From positions 1 through 54,576 of IMG/VR virus record IMGVR_UViG_3300009285_001752: a DNA stretch of 54,576 nt; one strand, given 5' to 3'. The translations under genes were made by a program, and so were the position numbers. Numbering within the stretch: position 1 is the first letter of the stretch; every line of letters starts with the position of its first letter. The notes beneath the pieces are model-generated. The model saw only the letters and a program-made list of their open reading frames with translations, searched no databases and was not told the origin of the DNA. Source of the stretch: a virus. Positions 6,351-40,349 of this stretch are shown one piece after another.

Positions 6351-7028
6351 CTAAACAGCCTCCGTCAATTCCGAGGGAGACTCCTTGAAACGCACTGGGC
6401 TTTCGGGAAGAATGAACTCGGAGAGCCTCAAGTGTTGGACTTTAACCATTTGCATAAGAGCATGTTTGAGACTTAGAACATTGAACTCGAATGTCTCAAT
6501 TGTAACGAGACTCGACTTTTCAACTCTACCCCAATCAAGCCATAGCTTGCCATATTTTCCACTATATGTCTCTGGCAGCGTGGTGTCGAAGCCATCAAAT
6601 TCCCGTAGAAATTCAGGGTGAGCCTCATCCCAGAATCCGAGATACCATCGCCTCTTTCCTTTTGTTGCGTCTAGAAAAGATTGGAGAGCGTAGTTCCGTC
6701 GGCTAGGCATGTGTGGATAACCAATCCACTCCCAGTCACTAAACGGTTCGTTCAAGTCATGAAGTGGAAAAATCCATGAGACATCTGGATATTTCTCACG
6801 AAGTCTAGTGGCTTCTCCGTATTGTAGGTCTGGTGAAACTGCGAAGTGGACTAAACCACACCCGTACCGAGCGAGTTGTTTTTCAAGCCATTTAACATCG
6901 GCTTGACCATTCCGTGCCTTATATGTGAACTTATTGTCAATGAACTGTGGAAACGACATGAATCCATGTTCATTTACAATTCGTCGCTCAGAAGTATCGA
7001 AGTGAGGGCAGGGCAAGGCAACAATCAT
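6351..7028 (-). CDS. DpdA/TGT-like 7-deazaguanine transglycosylase
   Basis: The start is ATG 7028, preceded by GGTGAGG and overlapping the QueT stop as ATGA; this gives 225 residues. The motif DGFDTTLPETYSGKYG (residues 145-160) matches the tRNA-guanine transglycosylase signature in which an Asp is the nucleophile (bacterial form VDMFDCVLPTR). An upstream SPD (residues 65-67) followed by a Thr pattern resembles phage DpdA-type enzymes. Such enzymes swap guanine in DNA for a 7-deazaguanine and so block restriction. It is shorter than tRNA TGT and lacks the zinc Cys cluster, which favours the phage-type DNA enzyme. Adjacent QueT supports this. Motif seen; DNA target inferred. Confidence 0.65.
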   Translation of the reverse strand: MIVALPCPHFDTSERRIVNEHGFMSFPQFIDNKFTYKARNGQADVKWLEKQLARYGCGLVHFAVSPDLQYGEATRLREKYPDVSWIFPLHDLNEPFSDWEWIGYPHMPSRRNYALQSFLDATKGKRRWYLGFWDEAHPEFLREFDGFDTTLPETYSGKYGKLWLDWGRVEKSSLVTIETFEFNVLSLKHALMQMVKVQHLRLSEFILPESPVRFKESPSELTEAV

Positions 7029-7480
7029 AGTCGCTTCCTCACCGCAACCGCTAGCGGTATTCCGAGAACGATTTCCGCAATGAATTCCCCAGCACCAACT
7101 AGAGCCACAGCGAGTAAGAATGGAACACCGAATAGGCTGTTGAGCAAGTAGCCAACCCACAACGCCACGCATAGAACGTGAAATGGTACGGCTTTCAATC
7201 CGAGGCGTTTAATCAGATATTTCGCTGGCAGAAAGACGAATGGAGAAAGCAAGTCCAACGGGCCAAGCGCAATACCCGTAGCGAAACCGTACCCGTTGAA
7301 GATCAACTGGCCTAGAAACGTTCCAATCAGCCAAGGTGTACCGAACACCGCGATTAGTGGGTAGAGAGCATCCGCCACTCTAATTTGGATAGGACCAAAC
7401 GCTATCGCTTGGAGAACGAACCCTAAAACTGCATATAGCGAAGTTGAAACAATACCCAGCGCAAGATTCTTAGACTTCAT
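7025..7480 (-). CDS. queT: QueT-family queuosine-precursor transporter
   Basis: The 151-residue membrane protein has about five hydrophobic helices and the QueT signature FGPIQIRVADALYPL at residues 28-42. QueT proteins are ECF-type S components that bring preQ0/preQ1-type 7-deazaguanines into the cell. The gene overlaps the DpdA-like gene by 4 bases (ATGA) and shares its operon, so precursor uptake and DNA insertion are probably coupled. No preQ0 synthesis genes are in the window, in line with a scavenging strategy. It would need the host's energising module, or act alone. Confidence 0.85.
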   Translation of the reverse strand: MKSKNLALGIVSTSLYAVLGFVLQAIAFGPIQIRVADALYPLIAVFGTPWLIGTFLGQLIFNGYGFATGIALGPLDLLSPFVFLPAKYLIKRLGLKAVPFHVLCVALWVGYLLNSLFGVPFLLAVALVGAGEFIAEIVLGIPLAVAVRKRL

Positions 7481-7489
7481 TTTGTTTCC

Positions 7490-7819
7490 TCACTGGACGT
7501 TTTGTATCCTCCCCAAACCCGAACACGCATGACATTTTGAGCCGATTTCAGACTTACCAGTACCCTGACATTGCTCGCACTCTACTCCCCAAGATAGCTT
7601 TTCCTTAGCAGACTCACTGAAGGGTGTCTTCATTTCAGGAATGTAGTTTGGAAGAATAAGTTGAGGGTTCCCGGGCAAATGACGCTTGCCATACTCCTTT
7701 ACTGCTTCAAGAATGATGCGGCTGTCAGTCCACCGATCCACCTTACCAATCTCAAGTAGGAGTTTTTCGAAATCTTTAACCTCTTCTTCCGGTAGACTGT
7801 ACGCTTTGATTTTAGCCAA
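7490..7819 (-). CDS. RHH-like protein with DnaJ-type zinc finger
   Basis: The start is TTG 7819, behind GGTGAAGG. The N-terminal 60 residues are helical with a pattern like a ribbon-helix-helix domain (SLPEEEVKDFEKLL ... RIILEAVKEYG). The C-terminal 30 residues hold two C-x2-C-x-G-x-G repeats (CEQCQGTG and CHACSGLG), the DnaJ-type cysteine finger, but there is no J domain. It is the first gene of the operon that carries QueT and the DpdA-like enzyme and has its own TATA box. Confidence 0.65.
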   Translation of the reverse strand: MAKIKAYSLPEEEVKDFEKLLLEIGKVDRWTDSRIILEAVKEYGKRHLPGNPQLILPNYIPEMKTPFSESAKEKLSWGVECEQCQGTGKSEIGSKCHACSGLGRIQNVQ

Positions 7820-7822
7820 GTG

Positions 7823-7876
7823 GTTCCTTCACCTTGTTATGTTATGTTATGTTATTTATATAAGTTATGTTAGTAA
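7823..7876 (-). promoter_or_regulatory. TATA promoter with GTTAT microsatellite
   Basis: On the minus strand TTATATAAA (7855-7863) is an excellent archaeal TATA box. The predicted start near 7834 leaves a short leader with the AAGGTGAAGG signal for the TTG at 7819. Four GTTAT units at 7836-7855 and two more beyond the TATA box form a 5-base microsatellite around it. This promoter would drive the deazaguanine operon. Confidence 0.55.
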
Positions 7877-8121: not shown

Positions 8122-8255
8122 GGTTTCTTTCTCCTTATGAGTGGCGGGTAGAAGATTACGCCTGCCATGAATCCGGCTTTGAAGTCGCTTGACAGTTCGA
8201 TGCCTGTTCGCTTCTCGATTCGTTTGAGTACGCAATGCGGACAAAGACGGTTCAT
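8118..8255 (-). CDS. 45-residue microprotein with C-x2-C
   Basis: ATG 8255 overlaps the endonuclease stop as ATGA. The N-terminus has C-P-x-C (LCPHCVL), followed by a basic helix and a short hydrophobic segment (AGFMAGVIFYPPLI). It could be a membrane-associated zinc peptide. Function unknown. Confidence 0.5.
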   Translation of the reverse strand: MNRLCPHCVLKRIEKRTGIELSSDFKAGFMAGVIFYPPLIRRKKP

Positions 8256-8647
8256 CTTTTTCTATTCCTCTCCAGAATCACCCTCTTCATCACCGCAAGT
8301 TCCGTTAAGATCTGTCGGACCTCTGGTTCGCAGTAGAGAATCTCGTCTTCGCTGAATCTTAAGACGTTAAAGCCTTGCTCTCTAACTTGGCTTTCCATGT
8401 ACGCGTCATGGTCCCGTGTGGATTGTTTCGTATGGTGGGGGCCGTCAACCTGAACGATAATCGTACCTAGAATCAAAGCGTCACCGCGGCCTGGAACGTT
8501 GCTTGTGGTGAAGGGGAAATATCCTACGGGTAGGGTGCGCTGTACGGTTTCCATGATGGTGCGGAGTGCAACTTCACCCTTCGGCGTTCTGGTGAAGTTT
8601 TCCTTGTAGCTGTGCGGGGTACGGTTCAGAGTCCGTGTCGCAGTCAT
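8252..8647 (-). CDS. DUF559/Vsr-like endonuclease
   Basis: ATG 8647 overlaps the upstream micro-gene stop (ATGA), giving 131 residues. The core VQVDGPHH (residues 65-72), followed by about 25 residues and then VLRFSEDEIL (95-104), is the DUF559/Vsr-type PD-(D/E)XK pattern (hydrophobic strand, DG-x2-H, then a Gly-Phe-x-Val-x-Arg-Phe strand). The first acidic position is Gln in place of the usual Glu, so activity is uncertain. Relatives nick or cut DNA; here a role in host DNA breakdown or recombination is inferred. Confidence 0.7.
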   Translation of the reverse strand: MTATRTLNRTPHSYKENFTRTPKGEVALRTIMETVQRTLPVGYFPFTTSNVPGRGDALILGTIIVQVDGPHHTKQSTRDHDAYMESQVREQGFNVLRFSEDEILYCEPEVRQILTELAVMKRVILERNRKR

Positions 8648-8730
8648 TTCTGTTTGCACCTACACAAGACATCATGTTCTTTTCGGGATTGAAACCTGTA
8701 GCCGTGGGTGGGGCAGCGAAAATCAGTCAA
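8644..8730 (-). CDS. 28-residue Cys/His microprotein
   Basis: A TTG start at 8730 lies over the stop region of the membrane-protein gene, and the stop overlaps the endonuclease ATG. The peptide has C-x3-H and C-x-C motifs (CPTHG; LCRCK), enough for one zinc. The frame exactly fills the gap between two accepted genes, which supports it despite its size. Confidence 0.45.
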   Translation of the reverse strand: MTDFRCPTHGYRFQSRKEHDVLCRCKQK

Positions 8731-19249: not shown

Positions 19250-19478
19250 CTAACAATTTCTTAGCAACCGCATTACTCAACACGTTCATAACAGGACTGT
19301 TCCACTCACCGCTTAGAATCTGCCCTGCCACAGCCGCAGCCTCCAAATCACCAGACGGCACAGGCTTACCGCTGCCCATGCGAACTAACCTACGAATAGT
19401 CAAATCAACCAAGACCATGAGGATCAGGAGGGATAGGTACAGGAGGGGGTGGTTCAACCCAACTATCAGAGTCCTCAT
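19239..19478 (-). CDS. Small protein with one membrane helix
   Basis: The frame overlaps the end of the tape-measure gene by 74 bases if started at ATG 19478, the last start that keeps the helix (HPLLYLSLLILMVLVDLTI). ATG 19415 would avoid most of the overlap but delete the helix. The tail part is Ala/Gly-rich and soluble. Function unknown. Confidence 0.45.
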   Translation of the reverse strand: MRTLIVGLNHPLLYLSLLILMVLVDLTIRRLVRMGSGKPVPSGDLEAAAVAGQILSGEWNSPVMNVLSNAVAKKLLGES

Positions 19479-22400
19479 CCCACTCTTCAGTGATTGTCGT
19501 CCATTTTCCATTGATCAGTCTGCGAACTGTACGAGTCAAATTGACGCCTTTCTGCCCTTGCATTGGCGCAGGCACCTGCTGAATTGGCGTGTTGTATCCT
19601 TGACTGTACGCTGGAGCTCCTCCACCTATGTAAACCATTCTACCATTAGGAAGCCGTGTCCATCCACCAATATTGGGAAGGCCAGCTCCGTAGCCTGCTC
19701 GTACCCCAACCTGGTTGGTTCCACCTGTCCATGCTCCCGTTCCCTTGTAAAGTTCCGTTGGGAGTGATGATGGAATAACAGACTCGGGCATCACCATGCG
19801 AGGACCCACTACAGGTTGTGTTTGTCCCGGGTGTGTTGCTATCCACGCCGTCTTCTGAGCGTAATCCCATGATTCCCAACCAGTAGGTTTACCCTGCCAT
19901 CCACCACCTACACCGTAGAGTTGGCCGCGTAGTCCAGCAGTAAAAGTCACATCCGTACTAATTCCCCCCGCGTAGGGTGTATAGAGCAATATTGGTGGAC
20001 CAAGGTAGCCGGATGGTGAACCGTAGATTTGCCCAGTATCAGGATCAACGGTGAACGTGTAGCCAGGGTATATGACTTCTAGTTGACTAATGGCTTGGGC
20101 TGCTGTTATTGTTCCGGCCATTAGGCCGCTGATTATTGGCTTTACGCTAGCAGTCTGCCATTGTGCGTACCTCTTCCAATAGTCTGGTTGATAACGGGAA
20201 ATATCCGCAGGATTGGGCTGCCATCTTGATGGTTGGTAAGGGGTATAGTCGTAGGGGTGTGGTTGCCATCTAGACGGATAATCTGAAGGGTATTTCCACC
20301 TATACTCTAAGCCCGCGAATTTTCCGACTATGTTTGCTGCGTACCCTGCTGCAAGACGCTGAAGCATTTCATCCCTTGAAACACGTCCTGCTTGGTATCC
20401 TGGGTAGGTTACATCCCACATGGACCATGCATATCCCACTTCTGAAACTGCTCCACCGTACCTTGCTCCTGCACCGCGACGCTGCTGGGTGCCCAGCCAG
20501 TTCTTCATAAATTCGTTGGGTTGCCCGTCAGTAGTGGGTTTCTGATAGAACATTGACTGTGTTGGGTCAACGTTCGGTTCCATGAATAGCCCGCCGCCGT
20601 AGAATGGTGCGTTAGGATCGGCTGGGTAAAGTTGCTGTAGTCCCCCACCGATGGTGATTGGTGGTCCGCCCCAAGGAGGTTGCCAAGACCATAATGGGCC
20701 TCCTGCTTGTTGTGCTAGTTGTTGTCCTTGCTGTACTGCTTGCTGACCTAGCGGTGTTCCGTAGAACGCTGATTCAAGAATTCCAACACCCAACGCTGCA
20801 CCATACGCCCATCCTACACCACCAGCAATCGGTCCTAGCGGAGCTAACCTAAGACCAGTAGAGGTAGCAAGGCGTTTGAGACTTTCCGATGCTGCCCAAT
20901 TCCAAACACGGCCCGAAATTCTTGGCCCATATTTCATGAAGAGTCCTGAACCAATAAGTGCCCCAACAGGCGTACCGATAGTCTCTGCAATGTCAGGGTT
21001 TTCCATAGCGGTAATTATCTGTCCGATTAGACTTGTTACTGGTCCACCATATGTAGTTAGTTCTGCACCAAATCCTTTAGGAATGTACGGACTAATTGCC
21101 CTAGCAAGAGGTCCACCAAGTTCAGCTCCAGCATACCAGCCAGCTATACCCCAAGTTAGTCTTGATGCAACGTCACCGAAAGATGGTACATCACCTCTCC
21201 AAGGAACGAATCCTTCCTCTCCAGTTACAGGATTTCTATACCAAACCCCTCTTAGTCCCGGTCCATACGCATTTGAATTTGTGGGAACCATACCCTTAGA
21301 CAAGAGCTTTCGGGTAATGCCTCGGAGTGGGGTTTCAACATATTGCATAATCTGACGCTCATTAAACTGAGACAAGCTAGACATACTGCTAATTCCCATT
21401 TCATCAAGAATAGCCAAACCAACGGTTTGACGCGCGTATGCAAGTGATGGGAACATCGCTTGACCAGCCGAACTCATGATTCTAGAACCTTTAACAAGCC
21501 CCCAAGTCTGCGGTCCCCAAGCCCCACGCACGGAACCACTCTCAAAGTAGCCAGTTGCCTCCCAACTTACTGATCCCCAACCACTTGGAGTTCCCCCCAT
21601 TCTTGATGCAAACGCACTATTCTTCAGAGCCATATATAGACCGGCTCCGGCGAGCCCCCAACCAATCACCTCTTGCTCAATGAATGATTGCTGCTCCGGT
21701 GGGGTTAGAGGTATACCCCACATCTGGCGGACTGAAAGCGTAGCGAGTGGTGCCATTCCAATACCCATCCCAGCCTGTAGAAAACTTACACCTAACATGC
21801 CTCCAGCATTGGCTCTTGTTACGCCTCCTAGAAGGAACCATCCTGCGACTTGAAGCCCAGTCCATTCACCTAAACCACTGATAAGCGAACTCGTTAAGTC
21901 CGGCATTTGCCCCGGCCAGAATGTTGGGGAAGGACCAAACGGAGTTCCTTGGTAAGTTCCCCCAGTAATAATCTTCTGCATCACATTCGTCGGGTCAGCT
22001 GCGTATGCGGCTTGAACATATGGAGCCATCGCTGCCCCCGCAGCTATCTGTTGTCCAGCTGAGTAGAACGGAAAGCCTAATGCTCGGATCGTCCAGAGTT
22101 CAGGATTAAAGTAACTGCCAATGCGAATAGCACTCCACGCCTCCTGAATTGGAGTAAAATTCTGCTGGAAGTTATAGTACGCTGCCCGCGCCTGCCATAA
22201 TGACTGTTGAGATATGCTGTAACCTAAATCTCCCCACGCTCGCCCTCCGTAGCCAGCAGCCGTTTGAAGCGCCGCCTGATACCTCGCTTGATACCCATAC
22301 CCTCCAGGGTCTAGACCGTATGGAGTAAGCCAACCCGCAGTGAACGCCCGAGTAAACATTCCACCAGCGTATAATGGTGCGAGTCCTGCGGGACTTAGAA

Positions 22401-22581
22401 ATCCGAAGTAGCCCGTGAGTCGCATTTGTTGAACCCAGTCAGGTGCAGCACCAGCAAAGTTCTGTTCGCTCACCCATTCAGCCGGAGCAACGCCAAGTTC
22501 CACTAGCATTTGTTGAATGTCAAGAGGTAAATCCTGAAACCATTCCGGTACTTCGTCGGGGTTGAACGGGTTCTGGCTCAT
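19405..22581 (-). CDS. Probable tail tape-measure protein
   Basis: At 1,058 residues it is the longest gene, and it lies directly after the frameshifted tail-chaperone pair with an ATGA overlap, the standard place for the tape measure. It has hydrophobic Gly/Ala helices (GWFLLGGVTRANAGGMLG; WGIAGWYAGAELGG), as tape measures have for membrane passage. The C-terminal part is unusual: Pro/Tyr/Trp/Gln-rich with repeated 'Y-x-P-S-R-W-Q-P' units near residues 765-800. Assignment rests on length and position; there is no tape-measure signature motif. Confidence 0.7.
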   Translation of the reverse strand: MSQNPFNPDEVPEWFQDLPLDIQQMLVELGVAPAEWVSEQNFAGAAPDWVQQMRLTGYFGFLSPAGLAPLYAGGMFTRAFTAGWLTPYGLDPGGYGYQARYQAALQTAAGYGGRAWGDLGYSISQQSLWQARAAYYNFQQNFTPIQEAWSAIRIGSYFNPELWTIRALGFPFYSAGQQIAAGAAMAPYVQAAYAADPTNVMQKIITGGTYQGTPFGPSPTFWPGQMPDLTSSLISGLGEWTGLQVAGWFLLGGVTRANAGGMLGVSFLQAGMGIGMAPLATLSVRQMWGIPLTPPEQQSFIEQEVIGWGLAGAGLYMALKNSAFASRMGGTPSGWGSVSWEATGYFESGSVRGAWGPQTWGLVKGSRIMSSAGQAMFPSLAYARQTVGLAILDEMGISSMSSLSQFNERQIMQYVETPLRGITRKLLSKGMVPTNSNAYGPGLRGVWYRNPVTGEEGFVPWRGDVPSFGDVASRLTWGIAGWYAGAELGGPLARAISPYIPKGFGAELTTYGGPVTSLIGQIITAMENPDIAETIGTPVGALIGSGLFMKYGPRISGRVWNWAASESLKRLATSTGLRLAPLGPIAGGVGWAYGAALGVGILESAFYGTPLGQQAVQQGQQLAQQAGGPLWSWQPPWGGPPITIGGGLQQLYPADPNAPFYGGGLFMEPNVDPTQSMFYQKPTTDGQPNEFMKNWLGTQQRRGAGARYGGAVSEVGYAWSMWDVTYPGYQAGRVSRDEMLQRLAAGYAANIVGKFAGLEYRWKYPSDYPSRWQPHPYDYTPYQPSRWQPNPADISRYQPDYWKRYAQWQTASVKPIISGLMAGTITAAQAISQLEVIYPGYTFTVDPDTGQIYGSPSGYLGPPILLYTPYAGGISTDVTFTAGLRGQLYGVGGGWQGKPTGWESWDYAQKTAWIATHPGQTQPVVGPRMVMPESVIPSSLPTELYKGTGAWTGGTNQVGVRAGYGAGLPNIGGWTRLPNGRMVYIGGGAPAYSQGYNTPIQQVPAPMQGQKGVNLTRTVRRLINGKWTTITEEWDEDSDSWVEPPPPVPIPPDPHGLG

Positions 22582-24839: not shown

Positions 24840-25544
24840 TCAAGGAGAAGTGAAAAGTGGCGTCGGAGAGCCGTAGCCATAGTCAGTGAGCGTGTCTGCG
24901 ATGTACTTGTCCCATTTGGCTACTACACCGAGAAGGCTTACTCGCTTCTCCCCGTCTGCTTGGGCGGTAGGTAACCCTGAGCCAATATCACTTAGAACCA
25001 TGTACTTGCAGAGTTGAACAATAACCTCGTCCGACGCGCTTTGGGATCCTATCTTTTTGTCTATGGTTGCGCTGGCAGCTTGAATTTTCTTTCGAATATC
25101 TTCAGGTGCATAGTCTCGTAATTTGAGAAGACTGTTCGCGTTCATATCTCCAACCACATCGTAATACGTGCAATACTCGTTCATTACGGGCGTGGATGAA
25201 AACGGCATTACTAGAATTTCCCAACCTGAAACCGTACTCTGCGCCGTACCTGAAGTTAAGATAAGTCGTGCAGGGAATCGACCGCCAGTATCCGTATCCG
25301 TCCCAGTAACAGTGTACTTGCATGTTCCATCGGCTCCAGTGATTACCGTGATTGAGCCGCTGACCATGTATGTAGTTCCAGAATCACTACTGAATGCTAT
25401 AACACGACCACCCCAACCAGTCAAATCTTTCAAAGATGCATCGGGATTCTTCACGGTGAAACGTATGAAGTCTCCTGTATCGTCCTTGTTCAATTCCACC
25501 TTCTCACGTGTACGTCCCACAGTGAGCACTATGTCATCGAACAT
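24840..25544 (-). CDS. Head-tail connector with N-terminal Ig-like domain
   Basis: Residues 10-115 form a BppU-type beta sandwich (DDTGDFIRFTVKNPDAS ... GRFPARLILTSG). Residues 125-225 are helical and resemble gp6-type head-tail adaptors (YYDVVGDMNANSLLKLRDYA, then ATIDKKIGSQSASDEVIVQL). The fusion of an exposed beta domain to a connector is uncommon. ATG 25544 follows GGAGAGGTTCTGA. Confidence 0.65.
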   Translation of the reverse strand: MFDDIVLTVGRTREKVELNKDDTGDFIRFTVKNPDASLKDLTGWGGRVIAFSSDSGTTYMVSGSITVITGADGTCKYTVTGTDTDTGGRFPARLILTSGTAQSTVSGWEILVMPFSSTPVMNEYCTYYDVVGDMNANSLLKLRDYAPEDIRKKIQAASATIDKKIGSQSASDEVIVQLCKYMVLSDIGSGLPTAQADGEKRVSLLGVVAKWDKYIADTLTDYGYGSPTPLFTSP

Positions 25545-26655
25545 TCAGAACCTCTCCTAACTTCTCCTTCAAATATTCCAAATTACCATGTTCAAGAATT
25601 GCAGGTTGACAGCCGACTAGGAAACCGTTCTGCGACGCTTCCGCAACAGGCCAAGCACCACGATGGTTGTAAAGTGGAAGTTTAGGCAGCACAGGCATAG
25701 TGGGACGGGTTTCTACCTGAAACTCCTTCTGCAACCGCAAGCTTGCTTCATGCATGTTCACTGACCGGTTCCAGTTTACAATCCAGAAGTACCAAGGCAC
25801 CTCGTCATTCGACGGCTTGAACGAATCATACCGTGCGTCGCCCTTCAGAGCAGAGTGAAGCTCGAGAGCAATCTTCTTCCGCGCGTCAATGAATCTTTGG
25901 ATCTTCCCAAACTGCGCCAAACCAATTGAGGCTTGTAGGTCGGTCATTTTAGCATTCCTGCCAAGGTGATCGTAATGCCAAGACTCGTGATATTGACTTC
26001 GCGTGCGCCCGTGATTCACGTACTCACGGCAGTATTGGGCTAGTTGCTCGTTGTCTGTGACTACCATACCGCCTTCACCGGTGGTTATGAGCTTGTTCAC
26101 GTAGAACGAAACCGACGCAGCCACACCGAAAGAACCCAGCTTCTTGCCTTGATACTCAGAGCCGAGTGCAACACAGGCATCCTCAAGTAGTGGCTTTTTG
26201 AATTTAAGCATCCAATCCCAATTCTCAGGGTACGAACCATACTCGTGAACCATTAAGATTATTGAATCGAAGTCCCCTTGCCAACTATCCATCTGCTCCG
26301 TATCCAAACACAACTTACTGTCGAGATCGTAGAAGTGTGGGATAGCCCTGAGAAATAGGGCGGGATTAGACACGGCTACGCTTGAACAAGCAGGAAACGC
26401 CACGTACACGCTTCCTCCAAGCCAAGTCATAGTATTAGCATTCGGCTGAAGCAACGCTGCAAGCATAGCCTCATTCGCACACGTCCCCGAATGGCACCCC
26501 ACAGCATACTTGCGTCCAAGGTAGGCTGCGATTTTATCTTCAAACTCTGTGACGCGTTCGCCTTGGCTTATGCGCCCGCTCACAACGCAATCTGAGACAG
26601 CTTTCCGTTCCTCTTCCCCTAGTAAGGGTTCCGCGATTGGGATTCGCCAGTTCAC
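25534..26655 (-). CDS. DegT/DnrJ/EryC1-type sugar aminotransferase
   Basis: The 373-residue enzyme starts at GTG 26655 (GTGA overlap with the acetyltransferase). Family marks are RISQGERVTEFE near the start, the cofactor-pocket HSGTCANE (55-62), LLEDACVALG (156-165) and the PLP lysine in FYVNKLITTGEGG (Lys 188). These enzymes transaminate nucleotide-linked keto sugars. With the SDR dehydratase and adjacent acetyltransferase it completes a route to an N-acetylated amino-deoxy sugar. Confidence 0.9.
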   Translation of the reverse strand: MNWRIPIAEPLLGEEERKAVSDCVVSGRISQGERVTEFEDKIAAYLGRKYAVGCHSGTCANEAMLAALLQPNANTMTWLGGSVYVAFPACSSVAVSNPALFLRAIPHFYDLDSKLCLDTEQMDSWQGDFDSIILMVHEYGSYPENWDWMLKFKKPLLEDACVALGSEYQGKKLGSFGVAASVSFYVNKLITTGEGGMVVTDNEQLAQYCREYVNHGRTRSQYHESWHYDHLGRNAKMTDLQASIGLAQFGKIQRFIDARKKIALELHSALKGDARYDSFKPSNDEVPWYFWIVNWNRSVNMHEASLRLQKEFQVETRPTMPVLPKLPLYNHRGAWPVAEASQNGFLVGCQPAILEHGNLEYLKEKLGEVLNVR

Positions 26656-27041
26656 TTTCCTTTCTCCAACTCAATTAATTCCGCTGGACGGTAGCCGAGT
26701 TCAGCGTAAAGTTTCGCGTACACCTCACGGTCACGGTACTGAGTCCAAGCGTTCGGGGTCATGTAAGTGGCGACTGCTCCGAGAACCGTCCCGAAACCCC
26801 TACCACGATAAGCCACGTCAACTAGAAGATGGGCAAGTTGTCCGTCACCTAGATGTGCGAATGCCCCAATTAGTTTGCTGTAGTAGAACATTAGGAGAAC
26901 TTCAGTTCCCTTCGGGCATATGCCCGCCTCAGATTGGTTGCCTTTGTATAGTTGTACGTAGGCATCGTAGTCTTCGTCAGTCATGGCTCTGAAGGTAATT
27001 CCGTAGTTCAGGTCTTTCACGATTAAGTTTGAGAGGCTCAT
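26652..27041 (-). CDS. GNAT N-acetyltransferase
   Basis: The 129-residue protein has the acetyl-CoA loop in VDVAYRGRGFGTVL (74-87; R-G-x-G-x-G type) and the C-terminal strand-turn YAELGYRP. It overlaps the aminotransferase by 4 bases and probably acetylates the amino sugar made by it. Substrate is inferred from context. Confidence 0.8.
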   Translation of the reverse strand: MSLSNLIVKDLNYGITFRAMTDEDYDAYVQLYKGNQSEAGICPKGTEVLLMFYYSKLIGAFAHLGDGQLAHLLVDVAYRGRGFGTVLGAVATYMTPNAWTQYRDREVYAKLYAELGYRPAELIELEKGK

Positions 27042-27940
27042 TTGAACTCTCTCAAAATTTGTTCCACCCGTTTCTCAGAGGTATGTTCAGTCAATACTCG
27101 TTTTCTCGCTCGTTCGATGACTCCCAAGCGTTCCTTGTCATTAGCAAGGTAACGCTTAACCACTTCCAGAAGTGAACTGTCACTGGTTCGGTCATAGATG
27201 GCAACTTCGTCCGCTGCAAACCTTTCAAGCACCTCCGGAAAATAGTCTGTCACCATGAACCCACCCGCGGCGGGGATTTCGTACATTTTCGTGTTCAACG
27301 CGCCAAGGTCAACCATGCTTTGCTGGTGAATGTTCAGGTTCACTTTTGAGTCATGCCATAGTGCGACGCAACTTGAATACTCACGCAAGCGACCGCTATT
27401 TTGAATCCCCCACTGGTCCCCGTACACTTGCACATCGATTCCCGCCTGCCTCAACTGGGTTATCCGTTCTTCTCGACCTTCGTAACGCGTGCCAAGGAAG
27501 CTAACCTCACGGGGGATTGGTACGTAGAAGTCTCCCGCACTCTCCGTGTAGAGGGCTGGTTCCACGTAGAAGGCTAACTCGTGAACATGCTTGTGTCGTT
27601 TCTTGTAGTCATCTATAAGGCCGGGGCTAGGAGTCCAAATATGCGTGAACGGCTTCTGAAACAGTTCTGGGTGGGCGTGGTCGTCTATCGTCCAGCAACC
27701 AGTGTTAATGCCAACTTCATTCAAGCTCTGAATGGTTTCCGCTTTCACGGACTCGGCTTTCATGAACAGAACTGAGTCAATGTCCAGAAGTTTGACGGTT
27801 TTCAGAATCTTCTCATCAAGACTGTTCGCGACGGAACGGTAATCGAACGGGTAAACAGTAGCCTCCCGCTCTAGGTATGGAACTAGCCACCTCTCGAAAT
27901 CCTCCGGATTCCTAAGACAAGCTATGTAGAGTAACTTCAT
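27038..27940 (-). CDS. CgeB-like glycosyltransferase
   Basis: The 300-residue protein has the two-domain pattern of CgeB/DUF3880-type transferases: DSVLFMKAESV in the N-terminal half, then a C-terminal Rossmann-like part with EVSFLGTRYEGREERI and ALNTKMYEIPAAGGFMVTDY, the usual donor-site segment. It overlaps both neighbours as ATGA. Probably transfers a sugar onto a virion or host glycan. Confidence 0.75.
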   Translation of the reverse strand: MKLLYIACLRNPEDFERWLVPYLEREATVYPFDYRSVANSLDEKILKTVKLLDIDSVLFMKAESVKAETIQSLNEVGINTGCWTIDDHAHPELFQKPFTHIWTPSPGLIDDYKKRHKHVHELAFYVEPALYTESAGDFYVPIPREVSFLGTRYEGREERITQLRQAGIDVQVYGDQWGIQNSGRLREYSSCVALWHDSKVNLNIHQQSMVDLGALNTKMYEIPAAGGFMVTDYFPEVLERFAADEVAIYDRTSDSSLLEVVKRYLANDKERLGVIERARKRVLTEHTSEKRVEQILREFK

Positions 27941-28908
27941 TCAACTAGTTCCCTGAGAATGTGATTCGCCGCTTGATTGTTCATGTCAGCTACGCGGTGG
28001 ATCATGCGTTTCACATGGTCAACGTAGTGTTGCGGGTTTTGCGCGACGGTTAGAATCTTCTCAGCGATGTATTCGGGTGAGTCGAAGCGTCCAACCACTA
28101 GGTTCCGGTTGAGTTTCGTGTGAGGCAGCCAATCTACAACGTTCGACATGATGCATGGAACGCCCATTGCCATGCTTGACATTGCAGCATAGCAGCAAAC
28201 ATCAGCGTAGTTCACTTGCAAGGTACAAGCCATTGATGCAACAAGCTTGTAGTAGTCGCCCTTGTCTGGAATGAAGTCGAGGTCTGTGAACTCGTTAAAT
28301 TCTAAAACTTGGTTTAAGTAGAATTTGTGAATTGGCTGCAATTTATTGATGAATAGTCGAAGTTTTGGCTCTTGTTTTTTCGCTAGAAACATCGCGGTAA
28401 GCTGGTTTATGACGTTCTTGTAGTTCATCTTCGAATTGAAAAAGCCGACGTGATACGGAACATGCTTTACATCCTTGAAGTGTTCATATTTAGCTAGGTC
28501 TAGTGGGAATGGAAGGAGAAAGAGTTTTGGAAATCCCGCGGCATGAAGTGGATAGTATATTTTGCGGCCTCCAACAAACAAGTAGTCAAGCGCACCAGCT
28601 TTAACCATCTCTTTAAGCGTAACTAAAAACTGTAATTCAATCCCATTCTGAACAAGATCGCTTTGACCGAGACTTGATGTAAACCATATTGCAATCTTAG
28701 TCTTCGGATTCTTTTCCTTTATCGCGTGTACAAGTCCTTGGTATTGTTGAACGTAGGCACCGAGAATTATCAAGTCTGCGTCGGCGAAAGCTGCTAAATC
28801 TTGGATCTCACTGACGGGTGGTACAACACCTTCTACGATTGCTGAGAGGTTTTTGAGGGCGGATTTCGTACCTTCCATGCCGTCTGGAACGAACGTGTTG
28901 ATTTTCAG
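27937..28908 (-). CDS. GT-B-type glycosyltransferase with CTG start
   Basis: The conserved-looking first strand (KINTFVPDGMEG) begins at a CTG at 28908 that overlaps the APS-kinase stop as CTGA; GAGGTTGGAG lies at proper distance for it. The internal ATG at 28878 would remove this strand and has no ribosome-binding signal. The 323-residue product has a GT-B-like C-terminal domain (LVASMACTLQVNYADVCCYA, SMAMGVPCIMSNVVDW). Donor and acceptor unknown. Confidence 0.7.
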   Translation of the reverse strand: MKINTFVPDGMEGTKSALKNLSAIVEGVVPPVSEIQDLAAFADADLIILGAYVQQYQGLVHAIKEKNPKTKIAIWFTSSLGQSDLVQNGIELQFLVTLKEMVKAGALDYLFVGGRKIYYPLHAAGFPKLFLLPFPLDLAKYEHFKDVKHVPYHVGFFNSKMNYKNVINQLTAMFLAKKQEPKLRLFINKLQPIHKFYLNQVLEFNEFTDLDFIPDKGDYYKLVASMACTLQVNYADVCCYAAMSSMAMGVPCIMSNVVDWLPHTKLNRNLVVGRFDSPEYIAEKILTVAQNPQHYVDHVKRMIHRVADMNNQAANHILRELVE

Positions 28909-29432
28909 ATGTCTCCAACCTCAACGAGTTTATCCATTAATTTCATCACTAAATCTTCAGCCGAATGTTTCTCAGTGTTCAGAGTGATAAATGGATGTTC
29001 AGGCACATCATATTGATGTACGCGTTGGTTTCCCATTCCAGTAACTTCAGTAAGTTCACCTGCAAGCGCCTTACGATACACCCCTCTCGGGTCGCGTCTA
29101 ACGCATTCTTCAAGTGAGCATTCCACGTAAATTTCACGGAACTTACCAACTTCTTGCCTAGCGGCTTCTCTTATCTCCCAGTATGGAGATATTTTACACA
29201 CGATAGTTATGATGTTGTTAGCCTCTAGAAGTTGCACTATTTTCGCGATTTGTCTACCACTATTTATTGCTCCTTGCTCACTATGATCGTTGTCAACGAG
29301 AAGGTTTCTGATTTCGTCGCCATCGAGCAGGGTTACTTTGAGGTTTCTTTCCTCCAATTTCTGTTTTAGGAGAATTGCCAACGTGGTTTTTCCAGACCCA
29401 GAGAGCCCAGTGAACCAGACGACGAATGCCAT
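28905..29432 (-). CDS. cysC: Adenylylsulfate (APS) kinase
   Basis: The 175-residue protein has the P-loop GLSGSGKT (9-16), LLDGDEIR (35-42), a family-typical VECSLEECVRRDPRGVYRKA (about 119-138) and the following TGMGNQ segment. APS kinases phosphorylate adenylylsulfate to PAPS, the sulfate donor. No sulfotransferase is evident, so either the host supplies one, an unrecognised gene here does, or the enzyme acts on another substrate. GGGTGACTGA precedes ATG 29432. Confidence 0.85.
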   Translation of the reverse strand: MAFVVWFTGLSGSGKTTLAILLKQKLEERNLKVTLLDGDEIRNLLVDNDHSEQGAINSGRQIAKIVQLLEANNIITIVCKISPYWEIREAARQEVGKFREIYVECSLEECVRRDPRGVYRKALAGELTEVTGMGNQRVHQYDVPEHPFITLNTEKHSAEDLVMKLMDKLVEVGDI

Positions 29433-29470
29433 TCAGTCACCCAACACTGAGGGGCAATAGGTGCTTATCT

Positions 29471-29635
29471 TCAATCGACCAAAATCCCCAATCGCGCCCG
29501 TTCTTCAGGCCAACCATAGTGACAGGGGCAATCACACCTTTTGGAGAAAAACCAGTCGAGAAATCCCCAACGTCTGCATGGTTTACGGTTTTTGTGATAA
29601 GTACAATTAACCCATAGTGGTCCGGTAGTTGGCAT
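29471..29635 (-). CDS. 54-residue Cys/His/Trp microprotein
   Basis: ATG 29635 overlaps the upstream glycosyltransferase stop (TGATG). The product has Cys/His residues spread as C...H...C...C-x-C-x-C-H (RCDCPCHY), a probable metal site, and many Trp/Arg. Function unknown; it is inside the glycan island. Confidence 0.55.
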   Translation of the reverse strand: MPTTGPLWVNCTYHKNRKPCRRWGFLDWFFSKRCDCPCHYGWPEERARLGILVD

Positions 29636-30597
29636 CACTTCAACACCTCAACATACCTTTGCGCTAGTCGCGTGTTGTTGTAGGTTGCTGCAATCCATTC
29701 AGGACCACGTGTTCGACTAGGAGGATTCTTGATCATGTTCACGATTGCTTCCCGCATGGCTTCAGGATTGTTCTGCGGCACTAAATGAAGTAGGGGGCAT
29801 TGTCCCCAGATTTCAGGAATGGAACCCGCATTCGTGCTGATTACGGGTAGTCCGCAGGCGAGCATTTCCCCAATCACGTAGCAGCATTGCTCCTTCCAAC
29901 CCACCATGTCTCTGCTGCCGATTACCCCTACACTTGAACTGCACATGAGTTCCGGCAGTTTTTCGTAGGGGGTAAGACCGTCATTCACGTAAAGGTCCAT
30001 GTCTCTTGTGGCTTCACGGATTGTCTCTAACCCCTTCCCCGGTGTTTGCCGTCCCACGTAGAGAACTTGATGTTTCAGTTGGGCTGTGACGGGTTTGAAC
30101 GTGTCGGTGTCAATTCCAGTTTCAAGCAAATTCACGATTGGACGTTTTGTTCTGGGTTTGGTGATGTGTTCTGCTTCCTTGTTGCCGCAGATTAGCAGGT
30201 TTGCTTCTTTCAGGATTGTTCGCTCAATCTCCCGCATTCCTTCAGGAAGAGAATCATCAATGGGTAAGTTTTCCCAGCGGAAGAACGCTGATTTAATCTT
30301 ATGAATTTTCGCGATTTGCAGGTTAATGAACGATTGCTGCCGCCAGAACTCGGTCATGCTAACGATCCAGTCAGGTTTAAACTTGACAATGTGAGGTTCA
30401 ACGTTCATCATGTATCGTCCGATGTCTCCGGCGTAGAGGGTTTCAACCGGAGTAACGTACTGGGAATTCGCCACTTCACTATGCCAACGCTCAGGCGCAA
30501 GCACTTGAACCTCTGCAAGTCCAAGGTCGTTCATCTTCTTCCAAAGAAGATACTGTCTAGCCGAAATCTGATCATGTCCAACCACGGAAATTTTCAC
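29635..30597 (-). CDS. GT4-family glycosyltransferase
   Basis: GTG 30597 is preferred: GGGTGA lies just upstream and the codon overlaps the previous stop (TAGTG). A longer ATG form starts at 30609. The roughly 320-residue enzyme has the GT-B/GT4 marks VLYVGRQTPGKGLETI and the donor-site region GEMLACGLPVISTNAGSIPE. Likely retaining transferase using a nucleotide sugar. Confidence 0.85.
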   Translation of the reverse strand: MKISVVGHDQISARQYLLWKKMNDLGLAEVQVLAPERWHSEVANSQYVTPVETLYAGDIGRYMMNVEPHIVKFKPDWIVSMTEFWRQQSFINLQIAKIHKIKSAFFRWENLPIDDSLPEGMREIERTILKEANLLICGNKEAEHITKPRTKRPIVNLLETGIDTDTFKPVTAQLKHQVLYVGRQTPGKGLETIREATRDMDLYVNDGLTPYEKLPELMCSSSVGVIGSRDMVGWKEQCCYVIGEMLACGLPVISTNAGSIPEIWGQCPLLHLVPQNNPEAMREAIVNMIKNPPSRTRGPEWIAATYNNTRLAQRYVEVLK

Positions 30598-30848
30598 TAT
30601 CTCACCCATGCGTACCCGTCAGTTGCCCCAATTCTAATTACGCGGTCGCAGTCGGGGCATATCTCAGCTTTCACATGGATGTATCGTGGAGTACTGTTCT
30701 TTTTGCCACAGTCTTTACATGACCCCATTAACTCGTTGATTCTTCCCGTTGATTCGTAGATTGGGGTAAGAATGTTCTTGAGGGATTCTAGGAATTCCTT
30801 ACGCTTCAACTCCAACCCCTTTTTTCTCACCTTCGTATCTAGCCTCAT
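30597..30848 (-). CDS. Zinc-ribbon protein with N-terminal helix
   Basis: The 83-residue frame from ATG 30848 overlaps the previous gene by 50 bases; later TTG starts are possible. It has C-x2-C (SCKDCGKK) and C-x2-C (ICPDCDRV) 18 residues apart, after a basic helix. A zinc ribbon inside a glycan island is of unknown purpose. Confidence 0.55.
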   Translation of the reverse strand: MRLDTKVRKKGLELKRKEFLESLKNILTPIYESTGRINELMGSCKDCGKKNSTPRYIHVKAEICPDCDRVIRIGATDGYAWVR

Positions 30849-31293
30849 AACGCGCCAGCTTTCTGAATTTTAGAAAAGATAAGGCGAGCACTAATGCGCC
30901 CTCATCCATCGTGTCTAGTGATAGGTTGTTAAACAGGCCGTGAAGGAAACAAGCCAGTCGCTCGCCAGGGGCATTAATTAGTCGTCGAACTGGAAAATTT
31001 GTTGTGCCGAAGAGAGCTAACTGTGAGGCGAGACAATAACCATTGATTACTTCCAATTTCTCGGGATATGGCTGAACTCGGTGCCTAATTTTGAGTTGCC
31101 GCGTCAACGTGGAGATTTCAAGACATCTTACACGGATGGATAGGTGATTGCCGTAGAAACAGAAATTGAATTTATCAACGCTTTTTTTAACCAACCATTG
31201 TTTGACTAGCGGCTGTAGACGTTCATAAAACATCCGTCGTTGCTCATGTGGTTTGCATGGAATAATTATGTTGAACCATTTTCTTTTTACCAA
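30799..31293 (-). CDS. Hypothetical protein in glycan island
   Basis: The start is TTG 31293 behind GGAGC. The 164-residue protein has FNFCFYGNHLSIRVRC at about 43-58, which distantly recalls the 'FFxRY...HLRLR' strand of lantibiotic-dehydratase/thiopeptide C-terminal domains, but length and the rest do not match convincingly. No catalytic residues identified. Unknown function. Confidence 0.55.
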   Translation of the reverse strand: MVKRKWFNIIIPCKPHEQRRMFYERLQPLVKQWLVKKSVDKFNFCFYGNHLSIRVRCLEISTLTRQLKIRHRVQPYPEKLEVINGYCLASQLALFGTTNFPVRRLINAPGERLACFLHGLFNNLSLDTMDEGALVLALSFLKFRKLARYEARYEGEKKGVGVEA

Positions 31294-31299
31294 TTTAAT

Positions 31300-32262
31300 T
31301 TAGCTCCATCCCCCAGTCGGCTTCGACATGCCTGTTCGCTTAATGTACGCTTCCACTTTCGGAACCGTGTGCAGTATTCCCTGTTCATGGGTATATTTAG
31401 GTTTCCATCCGAGGACTTCCCGGGCTTGCTGGTTTGAGCCGACAAGAATTGGAATGTCGGTGGGGCGTTTGAAGGTGCTGTTGAACCTGATTTCCCCAGT
31501 GTACCCCATGAGGTCGGCAATCTTATGCACCCAATCCCTGATTGTGATTCCTGTTCCTGTGCAAATGTTCATCTCCATACCTGTTAATGTCCTATGTACT
31601 ATTGTCATGTACGCGTCTATGCTGTCCTCAACGTAGAGGAAATCTCTGATTGCGTCTGGGTCGCCTAGTTCTACAGTGGGGCTGGTGAGCATTTGGCTGA
31701 TTGTTCGCTCAGTCACACGTCTTACGCTGTCTCGTTCTCCGTAGGTGTTGAAGTTGCGAATTATGAAGTAGGGAAAACCGTAAGCTAAGTGCAGATACTT
31801 CGCGTACAAGTCTGCCGCATGTTTCGCAATGGCGTATGTGAGGTGTGGTTTCTTCTCAGCCGATTCCTTGATTGGGAACTTGTCTTGGTAGCCGTACACT
31901 TCGCTTGTTGAGGCTTGAATGAACTGTTTCAGATGCTTACATTTGGTCCGTGCGGCTTCCATCAAGTTAATCGCGGCAACGTAGTCGGTGCTTGTTACTT
32001 CAAGGTAGTGGTCGAAGCTGTACGCGACAAGGCTTTGAGCGGCTAGGTTGATTACGATTTCTGGTTGAATTTCCTCAACTTGTCGTGTTACCGCGTCGAA
32101 GTCTGTTAGGTCTAGGTTGATGAGTCTGCCGAAGTTAATTGGAACATCACGCTTCGAAATGTGGCGAACGAAGCAAGTAACCTCATGACCTTCAGCGACA
32201 AGTCGGGGGCCAAGATACCCACCAATAAAACCTGACGCGCCAGTGAGAAGGATCCGGCTCAC
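31300..32262 (-). CDS. Extended SDR, nucleotide-sugar 4,6-dehydratase/epimerase
   Basis: The 320-residue enzyme starts at GTG 32262 (GTGA overlap). It has the NAD(P) motif TGASGFIGG (7-15), STSEVYG (118-124) with the catalytic Ser/Thr, and the Tyr-x3-Lys pair in TYAIAK (142-147). RPTDIPIL in the C-terminal half is typical of dTDP-glucose and GDP-mannose 4,6-dehydratases. It probably makes the 4-keto-6-deoxy sugar used by the aminotransferase. Confidence 0.9.
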   Translation of the reverse strand: MSRILLTGASGFIGGYLGPRLVAEGHEVTCFVRHISKRDVPINFGRLINLDLTDFDAVTRQVEEIQPEIVINLAAQSLVAYSFDHYLEVTSTDYVAAINLMEAARTKCKHLKQFIQASTSEVYGYQDKFPIKESAEKKPHLTYAIAKHAADLYAKYLHLAYGFPYFIIRNFNTYGERDSVRRVTERTISQMLTSPTVELGDPDAIRDFLYVEDSIDAYMTIVHRTLTGMEMNICTGTGITIRDWVHKIADLMGYTGEIRFNSTFKRPTDIPILVGSNQQAREVLGWKPKYTHEQGILHTVPKVEAYIKRTGMSKPTGGWS

Positions 32263-33383
32263 TTCAATTCCTCGTAAATCTTAAGAATTTGGTCAGCCGC
32301 TTTCTCAACGTTGAACGTTTCCTTCGCCCACACCTTGTTCTCCTTTGCGAGCTTAACCGCTTCCTGCCGGTCTTGGAATACGGTTAGGATGGCTTCAGCC
32401 CAATCTTCCGGTTTCTGAAGTAGCGGAATCTTACCCTCAGAGAGCTCAGGAATGGAGCCGACAGCGCTGCATAGGACTGGTGCGCCAACAGTCATCGCCT
32501 CCGCCCAAACGAGGCCGAATGCTTCCGCAAGCCTACTAGGAAAAGCCACCAACCCAGCGTTCACATACTCAAACACTAATTGCTCGGCGGGAACAGGATG
32601 GAATAGTTGAACGTGATCACCAACTTTGAGTTTGCGGGATTCGAGAACTATGCCTTCAGGTGGTCCTCCAGCAAAACATTTCAACATAACATCGGGAATT
32701 TCTTCAAGAATTTTAGGGAGCGCACGTATGAGGCTGTAGACTCCTTTGCCGGGGGTTAGGTTGCCGCAGAACAGGATTGTGTTAGCGGTGTATCCTGACC
32801 AGAAGAAATCGCGGAAGTAGGGGTTAATCCAAGGGGTTACTTTACGCCATTTCCCTTTCAGAACATCATGGGCTTCTAGAGTGTCGATGAAATATTGGCT
32901 TGGTGCAATGCCTAACGTTGCGTGTTCTAGGATTGCTGTTTCGCTTGCTAGAACATGGCGCTCGTAGGTTCCAACATCAGACTTGTACGGGTCACTGCAC
33001 TTGCATGGCTCCACATCTGGACTTAACCCGTTAAACAGGAAGCGTCTGACGCAGATTGAGCAGAAATCGTGAGCGTAGTACACTGAAAGGATCTTGGCGT
33101 GTTCTGCGGCTAGGATGGCTCCGTTGCCTACGTTCTGGTAATTATGCTGCTGTACGATGTCTATTTTGTCTCGTTCAATGATTTTGCTCGCGATGGTCCT
33201 GCTCATGTTGCTGGTGGTCTTGTAAACTGTGTAGTCGCCGTAGTCATGTCCAGAGCCAGGTTCACCGAACACTAGGAAACTTGTTTTATGTCCGCGTTTA
33301 CGGAACTCTGCTGCGAGTGCTAAAATGCGCTGCTCGGTTCCACCCACCGCTTCTAAGTAAGGATTACAAATTAGGACGTTCAA
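32259..33383 (-). CDS. GT4-family glycosyltransferase
   Basis: The 374-residue enzyme starts at TTG 33383. GT4 features: N-terminal GGTEQRILALAAEFRKRGH, NLTPGKGVYSLIRAL, and the donor site EAFGLVWAEAMTVGAPVLCS (around 295). A Cys cluster near 130-150 (CSICVRR, CKC) is an unusual addition and could bind a metal. It overlaps the dehydratase gene by 4 bases. Confidence 0.85.
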   Translation of the reverse strand: MNVLICNPYLEAVGGTEQRILALAAEFRKRGHKTSFLVFGEPGSGHDYGDYTVYKTTSNMSRTIASKIIERDKIDIVQQHNYQNVGNGAILAAEHAKILSVYYAHDFCSICVRRFLFNGLSPDVEPCKCSDPYKSDVGTYERHVLASETAILEHATLGIAPSQYFIDTLEAHDVLKGKWRKVTPWINPYFRDFFWSGYTANTILFCGNLTPGKGVYSLIRALPKILEEIPDVMLKCFAGGPPEGIVLESRKLKVGDHVQLFHPVPAEQLVFEYVNAGLVAFPSRLAEAFGLVWAEAMTVGAPVLCSAVGSIPELSEGKIPLLQKPEDWAEAILTVFQDRQEAVKLAKENKVWAKETFNVEKAADQILKIYEELK

Positions 33384-33519
33384 GCCATTGGATTCCTGCT
33401 AAGACTTTTCTTCTGATAAGTTCGGGGATGTCGTAAGCCATGTCTACGCAATAGTAGGGATTGTGGAAACAGTAGTGTCCGTACCGCTTGTCGCGGTGGC
33501 ACTCACATTCCTCAATCAA
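33364..33519 (-). CDS. 51-residue Cys/His microprotein
   Basis: A TTG at 33519 overlaps the preceding stop. The peptide carries C-x-C-H (ECECHRD), H-x-C-x2-H and a further Cys (HYCFHNPYYC), enough for a zinc site, then a helix. Its 3' end overlaps the glycosyltransferase start. Position and Cys/His pattern support it; low certainty. Confidence 0.45.
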   Translation of the reverse strand: MIEECECHRDKRYGHYCFHNPYYCVDMAYDIPELIRRKVLAGIQWLERPNL

Positions 33520-33872
33520 CCACGTACGCCGACCCATGCGAAGCCTGATACGGCTGTGCCAGCGGTAATGTCAATTCTTAAGCCGACTCTGCTGAGTGAG
33601 AAGCCTGTGTCAATGTTAATGCCGGTTGCGGTTACTGTGGCGACGGTTCCTGATTGCTGCACATACCAGCCTGTTGCACCTTCATTCACGTCGTTGCTGA
33701 CTTCAACCCGCCAGTTGATGCCTGAAACTGTTCCAGCATTGTAGACTATGTAACTCATCCGCTGCTTATCGGTTGCACATGTGAAAGTGTTTGAGTACGC
33801 GTACGCGTAGTCGTCGCAGAGTATTCCTGTTGCGAACGCTCCAGTAGGGGCAGTTAACGATACTATTGTCAT
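33516..33872 (-). CDS. Beta-rich structural-like protein
   Basis: The 118-residue product is Thr/Gly/Val-rich and looks like one beta sandwich (SLTAPTGAFATGILCDDYAY; GWYVQQSGTVATVTATG). It resembles virion surface or fibre domains, and in composition the protein at 42876. A structural gene sits here between glycosyltransferases, possibly as the acceptor of the glycan. Confidence 0.5.
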   Translation of the reverse strand: MTIVSLTAPTGAFATGILCDDYAYAYSNTFTCATDKQRMSYIVYNAGTVSGINWRVEVSNDVNEGATGWYVQQSGTVATVTATGINIDTGFSLSRVGLRIDITAGTAVSGFAWVGVRG

Positions 33873-33885
33873 TTCAATTCACCAC

Positions 33886-39590: not shown

Positions 39591-40349
39591 TCATGCATCC
39601 ACAGATTTAACTCTAAGTTTCATTTCAAGTGTTAAGGCGCCGTCAGTAGTCGCAGGGCATGGAGTGGTCAATGCTCCGTATCCACCAACACGAGCATAGT
39701 AGCAACCCCACGATTTCGCGGTGATGCCAGTTCTTGCACCTGTCGTGTAACGGCTTAACACTATTGTTGTATCTTCGGTTTCAAGTGCAACAAACCACAA
39801 TCCCTGAGTAAGCTGCGTGTCCGCTATGGTCCGCTCGAAAAATCCTGTTCCTGCATCTGCGGCGAAAGTACCTGCATCTAAGAGAACGGTTTGATTGTCA
39901 GGTATGCTTAAGCTTGAAGGGTAAATTCCCAACCTCACCGTCGTACTGGCCCCGCCCTGTGTAAGTATGCGGTATATGATGCGGTCAATCGTAAGCAGTC
40001 GGGGGACTTGAAATGGCGCTAAATGGACTCTGCCCACTACGCCAGTTTGGGAACTTCCCGCCCCGCCACATGTAACTGTGGCCATGTCTGGCAAGTACCA
40101 ATAGTACGGTATTGTTGTGCTGTCGTGTTGCGCAGAACCATGCGTGGCACCAGTCGTCAGGAAATCGCCTGAACTCTTATAGTCTAGGGCGTCTGCGTTG
40201 AGGTTCGTTTGGATTCCAGTAGGCCAAGTGAACGTAGCTCCAGTAGTTACAATGTTTACGCCTGTTGGTACTCCTTGCGGTACCCAACTTGTGCCATTCC
40301 AAACGGAAACATCGCTAGTGCTGTAGCCTGATGCTAGTAGGTCTACTAT
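39591..40349 (-). CDS. Beta-rich surface protein with no clear start
   Basis: The C-terminal 167 residues (from TTG 40094) form a beta-rich domain (LLTIDRIIYRILTQGG; GLWFVALETEDTTIVLS). The same frame stays open upstream for 85 more codons that look coding (DVSVWNGTSWVPQGVPTG), back to the stop region of the preceding gene, with no ATG, GTG or TTG. A CTG at 40160 and an ATA at 40349 are the only other candidates. It may be expressed by frameshift from the fibre gene (it lies in that gene's -1 frame) or carry a damaged start. Confidence 0.6.
   Translation of the reverse strand: MVDLLASGYSTSDVSVWNGTSWVPQGVPTGVNIVTTGATFTWPTGIQTNLNADALDYKSSGDFLTTGATHGSAQHDSTTIPYYWYLPDMATVTCGGAGSSQTGVVGRVHLAPFQVPRLLTIDRIIYRILTQGGASTTVRLGIYPSSLSIPDNQTVLLDAGTFAADAGTGFFERTIADTQLTQGLWFVALETEDTTIVLSRYTTGARTGITAKSWGCYYARVGGYGALTTPCPATTDGALTLEMKLRVKSVDA

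Follow-up and report, generated by a model that had tools for sequence, protein, structure and literature searches.

TGT and DpdA enzymes exchange bases through a covalent Asp intermediate. DNA modification based on DpdA and virus-encoded transporters of the YhhQ type have already been described (PMC6884629, PMC8651126), and phages that possess DpdA without synthesis genes are known, which may use a host or an imported base (PMC6884629). QueT supplies only the substrate-binding part, the S-component, of an ECF transporter; its known substrates are 7-deazaguanines and its normal role is to feed tRNA modification (PMC11130926). In the open-access literature we found no paper connecting QueT with DpdA or reading rudiviral TGT as a DNA-modifying enzyme, and likewise no QueT-linked unit, no phrog_17844 protein as a TGT substitute and no rudiviral permease as a base importer.

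The locus described here lies in the viral record IMGVR_UViG_3300009285_001752, which was analysed over its whole length of 54,576 nucleotides (the window). A first-pass annotation had recognised two overlapping minus-strand genes as a transporter and a DpdA-like enzyme (Table 1), and both reading frames are borne out. The transporter carries the QueT signature FGPIQIRVADALYPL in ORF 7025-7480(-) and matches PF06177 (64.8 bits, where the curated cut-off is 33.7; E 1.4e-17, profile positions 4-141 of 141) as well as phrog_27044, which confirms the QueT half of that reading. The overlap of the pair is the ATGA at 7025-7028, where the ATG of the enzyme at 7028 is embedded in the stop of QueT, a 4-base start-stop arrangement typical of coupled genes. 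The mechanical open reading frame of the enzyme extends further, to 7172, and we take the ATG at 7028 as the natural start because the relatives begin there (M-I-I/V-G). The enzyme contains DGFDTTLPE at residues 145-153 and just two Cys residues, C7 and C57, so that it has no zinc Cys cluster, as had been noticed, and the structural zinc site (Cys3His) of tRNA-type TGT is missing.

Table 1. Positions of the features of the QueT-enzyme unit in the window
Feature	Position	Strand	Remarks
QueT ORF	7025..7480	(-)	151 aa, ECF-type S-component for 7-deazaguanine precursors
TGT/DpdA-like TIM-barrel enzyme, phrog_17844 family	6351..7028	(-)	225 aa, 4-base overlap with queT
Invariant Asp31 codon	6936..6938	(-)	after predicted strand 2 (FxDxK), candidate general acid/base
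Invariant Asp67 codon	6828..6830	(-)	after strand 3 (PDY), aligns with DpdA LDVIGD Asp, candidate base-recognition residue
Invariant His90 codon	6759..6761	(-)	after strand 4 (PxH), corresponds to DpdA PxxH
Invariant Asp148 codon in DGFDTTLPE	6585..6587	(-)	end of strand 7 (GxDxT), candidate nucleophile
Upstream ORF	7490..7819	(-)	109 aa, TTG start, paired CxxC zinc-type motifs
TATA-box-like element	7855..7862	(-)	upstream of three-gene unit; weak evidence

The pair had also been thought to stand under its own TATA promoter, which is not what the sequence offers: the sole TTTATATA-type site of the window (one, against 0.67 expected by chance) precedes another gene, ORF 7490-7819(-). The start of this ORF is preceded by the ribosome-binding-like AAGGTGAAGG, its product has weak PHROG matches and nothing better, and it stops 9 bases before the QueT start. 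Since the TATA-like site lies before this 109-residue ORF and the ORF ends so close to QueT, an operon of ORF109, QueT and the enzyme is likely, and the unit probably comprises three genes with ORF 7490-7819(-) as the first in the transcript. No riboswitch was detected in the window with Rfam. Nor does the virus seem to scavenge precursors by a self-contained two-gene importer, because QueT is an S-component alone and import would need the ATPase module of a host ECF system. It is plausible that the host has a compatible import system, as QueT is found in 163 of 349 Thermoproteota genomes and the viral protein shares 43% identity with the best-scoring chromosomal QueT of that phylum.

Matches to terminase, portal and HK97-type capsid proteins around the pair indicate tailed-virus surroundings. 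The virus is probably archaeal, judging from the tailed-virus genes, the restriction of the relatives to archaeal elements and the commonness of QueT in Thermoproteota; a match of one of the 50 window ORFs scanned to Sigma-70 region 4 (E 9.7e-8), probably a short HTH, makes this less than certain. That no synthesis genes accompany the pair holds insofar as QueC, QueD/PTPS and FolE are missing from the record, which may be a fragment; the record also contains no TGT itself. Near the pair lies a DUF559 (Vsr/restriction-like nuclease) protein (window 8252-8659), and within the structural-gene region there is a surface-sugar cluster (window 25534-35052) with a DegT aminotransferase, a GDP-mannose-dehydratase-like protein, an APS kinase and several glycosyltransferases. 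Large unannotated proteins at 19405-22581 and 40346-42130, the latter with degenerate TLSQNATLKT-type repeats, are probably fibre or tail proteins.

The enzyme belongs to phrog_17844, a family of 'unknown function' (E 2.5e-8; phmmer E 1.9e-10), and all 12 aligned family members match the same profile. It has no NCBIfam or PADLOC match, and its Pfam matches are at chance level; identities as Cas6 (E 0.6) and as a peptidoglycan-binding protein (E 0.04) were dropped as chance matches. A tblastn search of plasmids recovered pING1, pHVE14, pNOB8, pMGB1 and pAH1 of Sulfolobales (best E 1e-6) and, more weakly, pSOG1, pSOG2 and pB12E5, which the family alignment upholds, all of them annotated 'hypothetical protein'. 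A plasmid member used as query reached ORF192 of Acidianus two-tailed virus (ATV) and the rudiviruses ARV2 and SSRV1. Identity to the 225-residue enzyme is 19-31% for the ATV, ARV2, SSRV1, pNOB8, pING1 and pSOG1/2 members, and 19 positions are invariant across 12 diverse members, including D31, K33, D67, H90, Y113, W128-G131 and D148.

Outside these elements the family seems to be rare. Direct tblastn of the enzyme gave no match in phages, viral contigs yielded no close relatives of the enzyme, QueT or the major capsid protein, and a DNA pattern for WYLG...GxDxT returned 41 contigs, all of known members. A scan of genome contigs for the plasmid family found none. The family was matched in 4 of 398 genomes from Thermoproteota, one of these matches being a weak fragment full of stops, and was not found in 293 of the Thermogymnomonas phylum, a scan that had no positive control. 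One of two chromosomal copies in the same genome (L100, 1507-2073) has an in-frame TAA inside the match. Hence phrog_17844 looks like a mobile-element family. The QueT-enzyme pair itself was seen in this one viral record only, and the plasmid genes adjoin no recognised transporter.

The DpdA-like designation of the enzyme survives in part: it is supported by the TIM-barrel fold, by the order and spacing of conserved residues and by the replacement of TGT in rudiviruses, while a match to a TGT or DpdA profile is missing. Neither the 225-residue enzyme nor any of the 12 members matched the TGT profile PF01702, and PDB sequences gave no match to the enzyme. When the family was compared with ten phage DpdAs by hhalign, P was 0.064 and 0.08, and the 113 aligned columns were in a sensible register. 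Equally good matches to DpdA arose in 2 of 100 column shuffles, and reversing the profile lowered the score. Against five archaeal-virus TGTs P was 0.85. In the controls, archaeal-virus TGTs matched phage DpdA with an hhalign probability of 97.6% (P 3e-12), which makes them secure DpdA relatives by sequence, and phage DpdAs matched cellular TGT with a probability of 60%. By these controls, a remote link of this kind is at the edge of what hhalign can reach, and homology of the 225-residue enzyme to TGT/DpdA is not proven by sequence profiles. In Sulfolobus virus STSV2 a DpdA/TGT-type gene (L199, 2989-3864) is clustered with genes for thymidylate synthase and a DNA methyltransferase.

The fold was modelled with AlphaFold on a relative from contig IMGVR_UViG_3300033159_000002, aligned with three relatives including the 225-residue enzyme, to which it is 34% identical in this four-row alignment; a single-sequence model of the enzyme itself was too poor for use (pLDDT 36). 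The model of the relative is a (beta/alpha) barrel (pLDDT 80.5, pTM 0.79) in which strands alternate with helices; seven main strands were assigned, the tail is disordered from residue 192 on, and Foldseek matches the model to TIM barrels. In the VIA comparison, crystal structures of Zymomonas TGT align with Z of about 10 over 184-193 of 212 residues at 3.3-3.8 A, where the many TGT rows reflect many near-identical entries and the lack of archaeal TGT from the rows listed reflects which chains were compared. 3-Hexulose-6-phosphate synthase (HPS; Z 11.0) and PdxJ (10.8) align over 170-173 residues, and tryptophan synthase alpha is also among the equal or better matches. In terms of the model, TGT is thus among the best fold matches and covers most of the barrel, but is not set apart from other TIM barrels. 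In a library of viral models, the best match outside the family (TM-score 0.57, E 7.6e-3) was the 'putative queuine tRNA-ribosyltransferase' of SBRV1.

The conserved residues are ordered as in DpdA. Besides the four residues in Table 1, the family has an invariant Gly after predicted strand 6 (WYLG), and the resulting D-D-H-G-D order corresponds to Asp (DSGAF), Asp (LDVIGD), His, Gly (HGFG) and Asp (SVDSS) of DpdA. The successive spacings are 36-23-41-17 in the 225-residue enzyme, 35-42, 27-31, 53-61 and 15-16 in DpdA, and 34-38, 32-34, 56 and 17 in rudiviral TGT, ranges that exclude STSV2 and L005, whose motifs were misplaced. The strand-6 Gly and the candidate nucleophile lie 17-19 residues apart in the family, and 15-17 apart in rudiviral TGT and DpdA. 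Where TGT/DpdA have the DSGG/DSGA signature, the family has PxFxDxK.

The strongest new evidence for a transglycosylase comes from rudiviruses. SIRV1-11, SRV and SBRV1 each encode both an APC-type 'aminoacid permease' and a TGT recognisable as such: TGT lies 8 bp after the permease in SIRV2, the two overlap by 4 bases in SIRV11, they are adjacent and convergent in SRV, and they are apart in SBRV1. In ARV2 and SSRV1, which have no TGT match, a phrog_17844 gene is instead located 9 bp after a homologous permease that is about 33% identical to those of SIRV. ARV1, ARV3 and MRV1 have no permease, TGT or phrog_17844; in ARV3 and MRV1, which are syntenic with ARV2 at this site, the glycosyltransferase and TFB genes abut directly. 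Among the rudiviruses listed, exactly one of the two enzymes is therefore present where the permease is, and neither where it is absent. In these viruses phrog_17844 stands in for TGT next to the same permease, and the exchange of permease for QueT and of TGT for phrog_17844 supports an equal chemistry of the enzymes and the same substrate class of the transporters. The rudiviral 'amino acid permease' is then probably an importer of 7-deazaguanine or another nucleobase rather than of amino acids. The permease-enzyme loci are L198 3501-5641, L200 1308-3436, L197 3037-5158 and L193 2805-4046 and 8655-9539.

In SIRV2, gp13-gp14 were lost together with gp10-gp12 when a SIRV2 mutant was passaged in CRISPR-null hosts, and the mutant series is reported to propagate like wild type except for the last deletion (PMC6315595), in keeping with an accessory function of gp13-gp14. 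SRV carries homologues of both genes in our comparison, versus their reported absence (PMC6315595). A further paper, on SIRV-like viruses, does not treat the pair.

On this evidence we consider it somewhat probable that the pair constitutes a salvage-and-insert unit, in which QueT imports a base and the 225-residue enzyme exchanges it for guanine, in DNA more likely than in tRNA. We infer the transglycosylation chemistry, the exact base, the DNA target and the protection as follows. The QueT S-component would dock on the ECF module of the host, and a 7-deazaguanine base of the preQ1, preQ0 or queuine type would enter the cell. The enzyme would then swap a guanine of nucleic acid for the imported base via a covalent Asp148 intermediate, with the DNA of the virus itself as the more likely target, and the virus would thereby gain protection from nucleases of the host.

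A TIM-barrel enzyme with a chemistry of another kind, for instance one that hydrolyses or phosphoribosylates the imported base or nucleotide, would agree with the equal or better structural matches of HPS, PdxJ and tryptophan synthase alpha and with the non-significant profile comparison with DpdA. We regard it as unlikely, because the family replaces TGT beside the same permease and its D-D-H-G-D order and spacing fit DpdA.

Somewhat less likely still is the same chemistry on tRNA, by which the virus might tune translation or salvage queuosine or archaeosine precursors for the infected cell. tRNA is indeed the substrate of TGT and arcTGT, the annotation of many rudiviral TGTs is queuine tRNA-ribosyltransferase, and supply of tRNA modification is the usual task of QueT (PMC11130926). 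In the 225 residues, however, neither a tRNA-binding domain nor a zinc site is recognised, no tRNA is encoded in the window, and a PCNA-binding-like tail in the relatives points to DNA. This motif, Q-x-x-[LI]-x-x-F, ends 11 of 16 family members and lies in a tail predicted to be disordered; shuffled tails give 0.67, a contrast that is not a probability, as the motif is shared by descent in related sequences. It is missing from the ATV and both rudiviral members, and the 225-residue enzyme has no PIP box (Qxx[ILM]xx[FYW]), only HLRLSEFI without Gln in register. Taken together, the PCNA-type tails and the clamp gene near several phage dpdA genes favour DNA as the target. Conjugative-plasmid and chromosomal members (L001-L009) end in motifs such as QTSLYDF. 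Phage dpdA is often next to or near a sliding-clamp or ParB-like gene (L095, L115-L122), and ATV ORF192 adjoins a ParB-like gene.

A chance overlap of unrelated cargo, with QueT serving host nutrition in infection and the enzyme the replication of the element, is very improbable: the Sulfolobales plasmid genes do lie among replication and regulation genes without a recognised transporter, in section C of the conjugative plasmids, for which a role in plasmid replication has been proposed (PMC4390865), but the start-stop overlap here and the second, independent transporter pairing in ARV2 and SSRV1 argue against it.

Extending the salvage-and-insert reading, we tentatively suggest, as a possibility short of an expectation, that phrog_17844 forms a third and minimal class of nucleic-acid transglycosylase, many members being PCNA-tethered and exchanging bases at the replication fork, and that it is interchangeable with TGT beside QueT or APC importers. 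If so, the class would be spread across conjugative plasmids and crenarchaeal viruses that are unrelated, the 'amino acid permeases' of rudiviruses would import 7-deazaguanines, and modified DNA would be predicted in SIRV2, ARV2, ATV and pNOB8-type plasmids. Archaeal mobile elements would then commonly modify their DNA by import and insertion, without a synthesis pathway. The analysis thereby offers a testable function for an unannotated family met repeatedly in conjugative plasmids and in crenarchaeal viruses of several kinds, as well as for the so-called amino acid permeases that SIRV-type rudiviruses encode. A SIRV2 mutant that lacks gp13-gp14 (PMC6315595) already exists and allows a direct test.

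Compared with known systems, the enzyme resembles the DpdAs of 9g, the Rosebush group, phiSM and Vibrio nt-1 (DpdA2) in being of the barrel type and, as judged from the model and the spacing, in having an invariant Asp after strands 2, 3 and 7 and a His after strand 4, and small versions occur there too (phiSM, 240 aa). It differs in showing no significant sequence homology with them, in having FxDxK and DxT where DpdA has DSGA and DSSSW, and in lacking the C-terminal regions of the larger DpdAs. The phrog_17844 proteins of ATV, ARV2, SSRV1, pNOB8, pING1 and pSOG1/2 are of the same family, but plasmid and chromosomal members have the C-terminal PCNA-binding-like motif and none adjoins QueT.

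On the transporter side, the YhhQ (QPTR) proteins of phages and of the haloarchaeal viruses HCTV-1 and HCTV-16 are likewise virus-encoded 7-deazaguanine transporters (PMC8651126, PMC6884629), but of another family, and HCTV-1 and HCTV-16 also encode a preQ0 synthesis pathway. The QueT/QrtT ECF S-components share the PF06177 match over the whole length and above the cut-off, whereas the present copy is virus-encoded, its substrate is presumed and a host ECF module is required. As a two-gene transporter-enzyme unit with minimal spacing and, in the stretches read, no synthesis genes alongside, the pair is matched by the rudiviral permease and 'queuine tRNA-ribosyltransferase' (SIRV2 gp14-gp13, SIRV11 gp40-41, SRV gp13-14); there an APC-type transporter occupies the position of QueT and the enzyme can be recognised as TGT, except in ARV2 and SSRV1, where it is a phrog_17844 protein as in the viral unit described here.
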